Of a DNA stretch of 64,000 nucleotides, positions 37,801-46,800 are shown one piece after another (positions within the stretch are counted from its first letter, which is position 1; every line of letters starts with the position of its first letter). This DNA is from Oryzias latipes (Eukaryota; Chordata; Actinopteri; Beloniformes; Adrianichthyidae). A program made the position numbers and the translations under genes. The notes under the pieces are model-generated. The model did not search any database and was not told the DNA's origin. It saw nothing but the letters and a program-made list of their open reading frames with translations. The DNA is taken from positions 25,437,594 to 25,501,593 of the forward strand of contig NC_019871.2 in NCBI RefSeq assembly GCF_002234675.1. The letters run 5' to 3'.

Positions 37801-40800
37801 CAACACGCAGAGCCGAGCACGGAGCACCTGCAGGTGACCGCCCAGACAAATAACAGGATTAGAGGGTGCAGTGTGCCTGGTAAAGCCGAGCCGCCCCGTC
37901 GAGGCTGTCACATGTTTGCCAACACATGAACACGCAGCTACAGCGTGATTTCATCTCAGGCTGCTTCTCCCTTAAGGTCACACAGGAGGAGCTGCTCTGA
38001 CGTTCAAAGGAGCCGAGTCGCCTTCGGGAAAGTGAATCCCCAACAAATGTCAAAAGGCTTCCATGTGAATCTAGCTCATCTGATTCAACCAGTCTTTTCC
38101 TTTCAACTCCTTTAAGACAGCGAGGCAAAAAATTATTTAGTCAGACACCAATTGTGCATGTTCTCCCATTTAAAAAGATGAGAGAAGCCTGTAAATTAGT
38201 TAAATGCAATGCATTGTGGTCTTTATTTGCCATCTTAGTGAGCATCGATGCACACTGGTTTTACGTAGAGACTTCTGGGAAATTTCCGGGGCACTCGATT
38301 TTGGCATTGTAGGTTCAGACAGCACTACAAAATGGCAAAAGCACTTTATAATGAGTAGTGAAGGAACTCTGACACAGCCTCAGAAATCTTGCTTGTTTGT
38401 GGGATGACCAAATAATTATTTCCCACCATAATTTACAAATAAAATCTTTAAAAATCAGACAATGAGATTTTTTTTGATTTTTTTCCCCCCGTTTTGTCTG
38501 TCATAGTTGAGTTATTTTTTCTTCAAGTTTCTTTTTATTTGAGTATTCAGCAACATATACAGTGTAAAAGACATTCAAACTTTTTTTTTTTTTTTTCCCT
38601 TAATACCCCAAACAAACAAACAAACCCCCCCTGTTGCACCCTAAAGAAAAATAATTAAATACAATAAAAAAAGATTTTGCTGAATGGAGTAACAGTGTTA
38701 CCCCTCAGAAAGAAGCGATGGATCAATATCTTTGATCTTGCTCAGAACTGGCTGCCAGACATTAAAAAACCCTGCAGTACAACCCTTCATTGAATATCTG
38801 ATTTTTTCTACGGTAAGATGGCACATAAGATCCACAAGATATTTCCTAAAAGTAGGGGGTTGTTTGTTTTTCCAGTGTAGGAGGATTAGCCTCCTGGCCA
38901 GAAGTGTAGTGAAAGCGATCACACTTTTGGATTTACTTGGAAGCCGCAGAGAGAACTCTGATACACCAAAAATTGCAATTGAGGCCTCAGGAGCCATGTG
39001 TGTCCCCAATGCGTCAGAGAGAAGTTGAAAGATGTTGTGCCAGAAGGCCCTTAGTGTCGGACAAAACCAAAACATATGCGAAAGTGTACCTGGTACCCTA
39101 TCACAACGATCACAATTAGCATTAAGGTCTGGTTTGATTTTAGCTAACTTTACTTTGGACCAATGCAGTCTGTGAACCACCTTGAATTGTATAACCCTTT
39201 GTCTTAAGCATATAGAGGATGAATAAATATTCTGAAGAGCAGTCTGCCATACATCCTCTGATAGGTCCGTAGCCAAATCTTCTTCCCACTTTCTTTTGGT
39301 ATGAGTCAGTGGATCTGTGTTTGATGAGTTGATTGCAGTGTATATTTTGCTGATGAGTCCTTTTGACTGTGGATTAAAGGTCAAGATGTTTTCAAGAAGT
39401 GAGTCTGGTGGTCGCGAAGGGAAATGGGTGAATGTGGTAGATAGAAAACTTCGAAGTTGAAGGTATCTGAAGAAGTGAACATCAGGAATTTTAAATTCAC
39501 TTTTTAGTCTCTGAAATGAAACAAATTGACCTTCGATGAACAGATCCTTCAGGGTTCTCAGACCATTTGTGGACCAATATGTAAAAGAGTTATCAGTTAT
39601 GGAAGGGAGAAACATAATATTTTTCACAACTGGGGCATAGATTGACATATTTTTAAGGTGCAGGCTTCTCCTAAATTGTGCCCAGATTTTAAGTGCATGT
39701 TTAACTACTGGGTTCTGTGAAATTTTGTCGAGGGATTGTGACAGTGGTATTGTTGAACAAAGTAGAGAGTGTAAAGAGGCAGATTGACATGACATTCGTT
39801 CAAAATTTAACCATTTAAGATCCTTATGACTTGATGTCTCTAGCCAATAAAGTAATGTACGGATATTTGCTGCCCAGTAATAGTATTGGAAATTGGGAAG
39901 TGACATTCCCCCATAATCTTTGTGGTATTGTAAAATATTTTTGCGAATGCGGGCAGTCTTCCCATTCCATATAAATGATGAAATCAGTTTGTCTAGGTTA
40001 GAAAAGAATGTTTTTGTTAAAAATAAAGGTATAGACTGAAAAAGATATAGAAACTTAGGTAGGATGTTCATTTTAACAACATTAATTCTGCCTCCTAAAT
40101 AAATTGGTAAGGATTGCCAGCGTTGCAGATCTTGTTTTACACTATCTAACAATGGAATAAAGTTTGTTTTGTACATATGTTTATAATTGCTTGTGATCCA
40201 AATCCCTAGATACTTGAATTTATGCTGGCTTAATTTAAATGGTATGGAATTTGACACATCTTTTAGTGCAACAGGATTTATGGGCATCAGTTCACTTTTG
40301 TGCATATTTATTTTATAACCTGATATTTTTCCAAACTCACGCAAAAGTGTGAATAAATGAGGAAGGCTGTATAGGGGATCAGATATATATAGTAATGTGT
40401 CATCCGCGTACAGAGATACTTTGTGTTCAGAATCCCCTCTCTGAATACCTTTAATAGAATCATCACCTCGAAGAGTAATTGCTAGAGGTTCAATGACCAA
40501 AGCGAATAATAAAGGTGATAAGGGACATCCTTGCCTTGTTCCACGTCCCAGCTTAAAAAAAGGTGAAAGATTATTATTGGTACGAATTGCTGCGACTGGG
40601 GAAGAGTAGAGAATACGTATCCATGAGATAAACCTTGGGCCAAAGCCAAATTTTTTAAGTGTATAAAAAAGGTAGTCCCACTCCACACGGTCGAACGCTT
40701 TCTCAGCATCAAGCGAGAGAACTATTTCAGATGTATCTGGTGGAGAGGGATGATGAAGAATATTTAAGAGTCTTCGAACATTATGAAAAGAATGACGATC

Positions 40801-43800: not shown

Positions 43801-46800
43801 TTCGGACCGCTTGCATCTCCATTTTCACCTCCCCGAACTCCTTCGCTATCACTTTTGCGAGCTCCGTCTGGAAGAGCTGGGTGATTTCTGATTTGATCGA
43901 GGCCAGTATGTCGCTCTTCAGATCTAGAAGTCCCGTCTCAGACAGTTCACACGGCTCCATTGGTGCTCCTAGCTCTTCAGGTGGTGTGCTAGGTGTGGAG
44001 CTAGCTGAGTCTGAGCACGCTTTGCTAGCAGAGGCAGCAGCTTTGCCCGTATATTTATATTTGCGGAGACTACTTGCCATTTCAGCTTGTAGAATAAAAT
44101 CCAGGCGATGAGGAAAGAAGATAGGTTGCTAAGCCGCACGAGTTTTCTTGGCACTTTTTAGAGTATTATGGCTTTTTTTGCTAATTTATGCAGAGCACGC
44201 TAAACATGCGACCTACTCCATTGCCTGCTCGCTAGCGCCCCTGTCATAGTTGAGTTATACCCATGATTAAAATTACAGGCCTCTCATCTTTTTGGCTGAC
44301 TAAACACGGTTTTGCCCCACTGTATTTGGTACTAGCTTTCAAAATGCTAACAGTGGGACAGATATGGAGCATTGCATTTGCTTAAATCCTCTAATTAAAT
44401 GGTTTTCATGTCATTTAGTGAAAAAAAAAAATCAGATGTATTGGACAGTGTTTTTCAACCTTTTCTGAGCCACAGCACACTTTAACCTTGACAAAAATCC
44501 CGCGGCAGACCAGCATCCAAAAATAAAAAAATGAGAAACTCAGTCTGTATTGATCTACAGCCCCTCTGCAATCTCACATGCATTTTTGTGATGATTGTGG
44601 CAGAAAAAGGTGGAAGTTGCAGCTGTTTTTCTAAAAGATGTAATTAAAGTTAAGTTAGAAGATTTAAAAACTGTTTGAGGGGTTTTCGTTGTTGTTTCAA
44701 GACGTTTAACAACGAAGACTCATTGTGCGCTGAGATGCTGTCACTTTAACCCAATGTATGTTGGGAGATGTAGTGCAAACAGCCGCCGAACGCAGACAGA
44801 CTCGCGTCTCTGAGCTTCATGGTTTTGTTCACTTGTTCCACGGTCTGATACCAGATTCTGTGGAAAACTACACTGCTAAAGACGAGCTTTAGCTGGTATT
44901 TTTTTTGGAACTGAGAGACTTAATGAGCTAAACGGAACAAGGAAGTGAAGACTTTGACCACTTCTGATTGGTCAGACTGCTGACATGGGATTTAGCCTCC
45001 AAGAATGATTGGTGGAGACAGTTATAGGGGACTTAAAGGGACGTTAAAGGGACTTTTCCAAAAACAGCTGTAGCTGCAGCTAAATCGCGGTACTGTCATT
45101 CTTATCCAAATCTCTTTAATAGAATCAAATAAACACAAAGAAAAAAGTATTTTACGATCTTTCATATTCCTAACTACTCAGTGTTCTATCAGGGCCTGTT
45201 TGGATGAACAAAGAACTGATATCCTGGAGATGGTACTGTAAATGTTTTTAGATCAGTGATTGAGGGCAATTTCCCACGGCACACTAGTGAGCCGCAGCAC
45301 ACTGGTTGAAAAACAATGTATTAAGGGAACAGCAGAATTCTTTACCCAGTTCTTCTAAAAATGTACTCACTTTTTTTGTTTGTGGACTCTAGACAACCAG
45401 AAAATGTTTTTGTTTTCTGAGTGCAAAGTAATGTCAATAAATGGATGTTTAAAACCGATTTGGACTTGAATTGAAAATGTTATGTCTTGCAAAAAACAAA
45501 ATTAACATCAAAAGTGCAGTCAAAGCACACAATGGCTAGATTTATTTTCCTCTTTCTTGAAACACAAAGTTAAATTAGTGTAGGAGCGAGTACCTGTCCT
45601 TTCCTGTTAACTCCAATGATCCCAGCTGTGGGTTCATGCGGGGCAGTGACAAAAATAGTCTCCCCGCTGATTCTGTTCATGTAGATGCAGGTTCCTGTCT
45701 CCAGGTCGTACAGGTGAATGTAGCCGTATTTGGTGATTAGAAAGACCACGTCTTGCTTGGAGCTGATCTAATGAAGAGTAATTGTGATCAATTTATTGTA
45801 TGAATCTGAATCTATGAAAAAAAAAAAAGGTACCAAAGAAAGCTCAATTTAAATGTATCCAAATGATGAATTCTTTTAAAGATTCCTTGCTTACGGAAAA
45901 CCTGAAGAATCAAAAGACAGAAAGGTTTGTACCTGCATGGCAACGGGGAAGTCGTTTTGTGCTTCTGGGGGGAAGAAAACGTCGACAGCTTTCTTTGGAA
46001 AAGGCTGGTTCCCAGTTGGGGGAGTTCCCACTTCAATGATGTGAAGCTAGCAGGAAAATGAAAAAGGAAATTAGGAGCAACAGAAATAAACCCAGGCTGT
46101 CTAGGCTTCTGCAAGGCTTCCCATATATTACTTTTGCTGCAATTAGATGCAATCATTTTTTGGTGCAAAAATGTTAGAGAAAGTTCTGACTGCAGGGCAA
46201 CCTTACTTTTCCTCCGGCTTGTCCCCGAACCGCGAAACAGAACAGAGTGGACTCTTCAGCATTGCCCTCCATCTTGAACTGAGCAAAGCCTGCAGCATGG
46301 CCTTCAATAGGCTGTGACACCTTCCTGTCCACAGAGTACAACTGCATGGCTCCAACGACACGGTTTTGCTGAACGGAACAAGCAAATCAGTTTACATTCA
46401 GATCCTTTTCTTTTTTTTTTTTTTTTACAAATCGTTCCAGCTGCTTCACTGACAAGGCTACCTGTGCTGAAATGCCAATAAGAAGCAACCATTTCTGTTT
46501 GGCATCAGTGCGGTAGTTGATGATCTGACAGCCCGCCAGGCTAGAGTGGCGGTCAAAGACTTTGATTGGCTGAGAGTCGCCCTCCATGCTCCAGTGGTAC
46601 ACGGCATTGTCTGTGACCAGGGCGACGGTGTTCAGAGAGATCCACTTCCAGAAAGTCACATCATCTGTCATTGTGTGAGCCTTCATCTTGCTCTTCATCT
46701 CAATGTTAAAGATCTGCAGGGTCTTTGCAGCTGAAAACACCAAGAGATGAGGTTAACCTCCGAACCACCGGGGTCGAAACAAACCTCAAATCTACAGACT

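Follow-up and report, generated by a model that had tools for sequence, protein, structure and literature searches.

A recent full-length L1-type LINE insertion in a clathrin heavy chain intron of medaka

An intron of the clathrin heavy chain gene (cltc) of medaka (Oryzias latipes) almost certainly carries a recent, full-length insertion of an L1-type LINE; this confidence covers both the identity and the recency of the element, as judged from its sequence and that of its relatives. Events of this sort are well known and ordinary, and we do not put the family forward as unpublished. The window, i.e., the whole stretch of DNA analysed, comprises 64,000 nucleotides of contig NC_019871.2, and its features are collected in Table 1. 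Two ORFs are read without a stop inside a single minus-strand element, flanked by identical copies of CTGTCATAGTTGAGTTAT. The earlier note had reported both ORFs open, a perfect duplication on either side, YADD and APE motifs, and a poly(A) signal at the 3' end. On re-reading, the ORFs had the same sizes (308 and 1,278 aa), the exact 18-bp repeat was recovered (38498-38515 and 44241-44258), YADD and the endonuclease motifs were found in ORF2, and the signal proved to be an AATAAA at 38534-38539 on the minus strand, starting 24 nt short of the element end; six further AATAAA lie inside the LINE. The G-runs and A16 tract of the 3' UTR recall the G-rich tract that human L1 has in its 3' UTR.

Table 1. 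Coordinates of the LINE, its parts and its host intron in the window
Feature	Position	Strand	Basis or remark
cltc intron holding the LINE, 8,713 bp	36881-45593	-	GT donor, AG acceptor
Full-length L1-type LINE, 5,725 bp	38516-44240	-	bounded by duplications; 5' end common to 10 of 11 fetched copies
Target-site duplication at LINE 3' end	38498-38515	.	exact 18-bp repeat
Target-site duplication at LINE 5' end	44241-44258	.	exact 18-bp repeat
5' UTR, 160 bp, first bases GGGCGCTAGCG	44081-44240	-	start common to other copies
ORF1, 308 aa: predicted coiled coil aa 48-159, then L1 ORF1p-like region	43154-44080	-	translation, ORF1p matches, model
ORF1/ORF2 spacer, 619 bp, T-rich	42535-43153	-	
(TA)n microsatellite within spacer	42882-42905	-	copies vary in its length
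ORF2, 1,278 aa	38698-42534	-	translation and domain matches
ORF2 endonuclease (APE-like) domain, aa 15-247	41794-42492	-	
ORF2 reverse transcriptase domain, aa 527-780, YADD at aa 709-712	40195-40956	-	
ORF2 C-terminal CCHC motif, aa 1141-1158	39061-39114	-	
3' UTR: G-runs, internal A16 tract, AATAAA, very short terminal A run	38516-38697	-	

The proteins are of L1 type. ORF2 has the N-terminal APE-like endonuclease, reverse transcriptase and C-terminal CCHC motif of such elements; its alignments to chains of human L1 ORF2p span aa 15-1195 (E = 2.6e-187) or aa 15-1233, and it matched the Pfam families RVT_1 (2.5e-41) and Exo_endo_phos (3.9e-14), while its zf-RVT match (24.6 bits) fell under the cut-off of 27.5. 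It extends 14 residues N-terminal of the L1 endonuclease match and ends beyond the CCHC motif. In the alignment to human L1, the endonuclease retains the residues N, E, Y, D, N, D together with the SDH motif, a serine standing in place of the human threonine. ORF1 combines a predicted coiled coil, a putative RRM and an L1 C-terminal domain, the RRM part on the strength of a weak 2ykp/2yko alignment (E about 2e-5). Among L1 ORF1p chains its best match was 2jrb (E = 3.8e-6), followed by 2ykp (E = 1.7e-5); in all, matches to such chains cover aa 109-299 and aa 236-306. Pfam L1 ORF1 families gave no match at E 0.1. A single-sequence structure model of ORF1 has one helix at aa 48-159 and a beta-alpha-beta-beta-beta-alpha end; since its mean pLDDT is 61.7, the helix is its sole confident part (83-93 in blocks of residues 51-150, mostly <65 in the C-terminal half).

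Searches beyond the medaka genome found no relatives in viral contigs (with ORF2, ORF1 or part of the reverse transcriptase) or in genome contigs (with ORF2), and tblastn of ORF2 against phages gave no match. Against plasmids, ORF2 gave two weak matches that we set aside, at 24.5% identity over the reverse transcriptase region (to a sequence with no annotation) and at 26.4% identity to an exodeoxyribonuclease III. The only Rfam match (E up to 1), SNORD14 on the other strand at 21.8 bits against a cut-off of 64, was taken as chance.

When the human clathrin heavy chain is mapped onto the window, it follows the minus strand, on which the cltc exons lie, and the host intron separates exons ending ...VNRKGQ and beginning VLSVCV.... 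Together with one duplication, the LINE accounts for 5,743 of the intron's 8,713 bp and, since it shares its strand with cltc, it is inserted in sense; the minus-strand exons and the GT/AG intron (45593-36881) bear out the placement proposed in the earlier note. In human genes, intronic L1s have been linked to intron retention, exonization and cryptic polyadenylation (PMC3192792), and it is possible that the medaka LINE affects cltc transcripts, as the earlier note suggested, although most of them presumably lose it with the spliced intron. Adjoining the LINE, at 44446-45319 of the window, is a non-autonomous element with inverted ends that we take to be hAT-like; an 80%-identical relative of it, with an 8-bp duplication, sits inside another copy of the LINE (L014). 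Within the window, no further DNA copies of the LINE were found, the matches there being simple repeats or short enough to be put down to chance, and a decayed 3' end of a distant L1-type ORF2 (30% protein identity, E = 3e-11) lies on the minus strand at 9835-10197.

Relatives of the LINE were sought in its own genome (734,051,031 bases on 25 contigs), and because 40 of 132 candidates were scored, the family counts that follow are lower bounds. At least 67 matches were found, and at least eight of these span 5,600 bp or more of the query. The earlier note had proposed counting copies above 98% identity: at least six full-length copies, that in the window included, stand at 99% or more, and at least two more at 97%. 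We examined 11 near full-length copies, namely eight loci (L001-L008, where L001 is the window copy) and three interrupted ones (L012-L014), leaving out other partial or older matches. L005 is a single match in the genome search and falls into two blastn pieces because its TA run is longer. All 11 copies have an ORF1 of 308 or 310 aa, and ten share the same 5' base, several with additional G's, L008 having no counterpart of the first 112 bp. Both ORFs are full length in five (L001, L003, L004, L005 and L006); in L002 the ORF2 frame is shifted close to its start, and ORF2 is broken or interrupted in L007, L008, L012, L013 and L014. L012 and L013 are each about 99% identical to the window LINE, the former carrying an insert of 205 bp at TTAA (presumably piggyBac-like) and the latter one of 224 bp that has an 8-bp duplication (presumably hAT-like); as they interrupt LINE copies, these inserts postdate the LINE. 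This is a small, young L1-type LINE family.

Variable duplications with an A-rich 3' end were found in nine of the 11 copies, each with its own, differing duplication of 15-20 bp, which indicates that the duplication at cltc is not a chance repeat; none was found for L003 and L008. Duplications were located by script for L001, L002, L004, L006 and L007 and by eye for L005, L012, L013 and L014, both sides then being checked, and their length is uncertain where initial A's adjoin the poly(A) run. The nine duplications are unrelated target sequences. L1-type endonucleases prefer A-rich target sites, and the AAA within the first four bases of six of the nine fits such an enzyme; the site at cltc, GGGT/ATAACT, does not conform cleanly to the A-rich L1 type and fits less well. 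Target-primed reverse transcription, the route claimed in the earlier note for a recent insertion, is supported by the domain matches, the copy-specific duplications, the common 5' end (10 of 11 copies) and the single private substitution described below. A source copy would have been transcribed from its 5' end, its RNA would have been bound by ORF1p and ORF2p, and ORF2p would then have cut one strand of the cltc intron and reverse-transcribed the RNA into it.

The pieces within a satellite array and the 3' end of L005 are the least routine observations made here. On contig C12 (21.18-21.23 Mb, loci L009-L011) a stand-alone piece that consists of just the LINE's first 150 bp occurs three times at 100% identity, every time with the 17-bp duplication GAAATGTGACCAAAAAC on its flanks; a fourth piece, in L011, is 98% identical, and L009 is a 157-bp tandem (satellite) array. 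From their sequences the C12 pieces look like one TPRT-like insertion of 5'-end RNA lacking a 3' end that then spread with the array; a literature search on 3'-truncated LINE insertions found no papers. At the 3' end of L005 (C1:31317600 region) a 35-nt stretch lies between two poly(A) runs, ahead of the duplication. It is probably a 3' transduction, to judge from this arrangement; no source for it (allowing up to three mismatches) was found in the 14 loci and the window besides L005 itself.

The earlier note had labelled the element L1/Tx1. The domains uphold its L1-type part, and a target-specific Tx1 element is contradicted by the nine copies in nine different sequences; it belongs to the L1/Tx1 superclade, and on its domains and target sites we place it no finer than that. 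Keno, Kibi and other Tx1-clade LINEs insert at fixed sequences; they share the superclade, whereas the medaka copies hit no single sequence. With human L1 the element shares its two ORFs, an ORF1p with coiled coil and C-terminal domain, an ORF2p of endonuclease, reverse transcriptase and CCHC motif, duplications of 15-20 bp and an AATAAA end; it differs in its 160-bp 5' UTR, in its 619-bp inter-ORF spacer (about 63 bp in human L1), in YADD for the human FADD, and in the few copies found.

Swimmer 1 of medaka is reportedly, by the title of Duvernell and Turner 1998, a low-copy teleost LINE family similar to mammalian L1, and the present family may be Swimmer 1 (AF055640) or close kin. Of eight LINE families reported for medaka, six fall in the L1 clade, and the same source recognizes Swimmer plus three Tx1 branches within the L1 of teleosts (PMC4746887). 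Another L1/Tx1-type medaka family is described with six full-length hits and a named complete copy on chr3 that has one ORF (PMC8550402). None of the at least 67 matches listed for the cltc-type LINE lies on contig C3, so that, going by that copy and if contig numbers equal chromosome numbers, the two families are probably different. Recently active L1 and Tx1 families have been reported in fish, with medaka among the hosts (PMC7140322).

The age of the insertion was estimated from private substitutions. Against the other copies L001 differs by 4 (L002), 7 (L005), 15 (L004), 17 (L003), 30 (L006), 93 (L008) and 99 (L007) substitutions, and in the tree it pairs with L002 (support 88/91) within a young cluster that comprises six copies. 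When eight copies are aligned, 5,538 columns are free of gaps, and in these a single substitution is private to L001, a synonymous C to T at ORF2 codon 265, against 2, 4, 4, 2 and 12 for L002-L006, 60 for L007 and 52 for L008. The mean fish mutation rate has been given as 5.97e-9 per site per generation (PMC9995274). At this fish-average, not medaka-measured, rate the insertion is about 30,000 generations old, with an upper limit of about 169,000 (Poisson 95% limit of 5.57 changes), a count that includes changes that arose in the source copy. Dating from the open frames alone gave a 95% bound of 0.46% divergence (at 10% indels per substitution), weaker than the private-substitution count, and was set aside.

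The cltc copy is probably still able to jump, as its coding parts are intact; its near-identical sisters and the shortage of nonsynonymous changes in ORF2 speak for competence as well. ORF2 dN/dS is about 0.35 for L001 vs. L007 and about 0.40 vs. L008, values as for a lineage apparently kept functional; for ORF1, ratios of 1.03 (13 changes, L007) and 0.85 (15 changes, L008) give no sign of constraint. The short terminal A run, and L003 and L008 with no duplication, count against the main reading of a recent L1-type insertion. A recently inserted yet inactive copy, with open frames that are silenced, have a weak promoter or bear a missense change shared by the family, is the strongest alternative, although we think it rather unlikely. 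Open frames differ from activity, the 5' UTR is just 160 bp, and near-identity is no proof of competence, since the nearest sister, L002, is only four substitutions away and already frameshifted in ORF2; on the other hand, L001 has no private amino-acid change compared with the seven other aligned copies. A broader reading of the copy as still mobile is more tentative, and we would sooner doubt than adopt it as a whole: that a family with some twelve full-length copies continues to jump, that strains differ in whether they carry the cltc insertion, and that the machinery also inserts RNA pieces lacking a 3' end, for which the 150-bp C12 piece of 5' UTR only, with its 17-bp duplication, is suggestive.

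Intact ORFs within a gene might also reflect domestication, i.e., an old insertion with ORF1 or ORF2 kept open by host selection, but this is highly improbable given the perfect duplication, the lone private change among 5,538 columns, the four copies elsewhere that are just as intact, and near-identity that extends outside the ORFs. Just as improbable is a repeat misplaced into the cltc intron by the assembly: on either side, the 18-bp duplication runs directly into cltc intron sequence, one base is private to this copy, and its sisters are found on different contigs and have different duplications. An undetected frameshift or wrong base, named in the earlier note as a way in which its claim could fail, is unlikely, as L003-L006 on other contigs read the same full-length ORFs.

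A recent, full-length L1-type insertion in sense within a clathrin gene provides a natural test of what a fresh intronic LINE does to its host transcript. In what appears to be a laboratory model, whose inbred strains allow direct tests of presence or absence, transcription and activity, individual intact copies are now named for a low-copy vertebrate LINE outside mammals.
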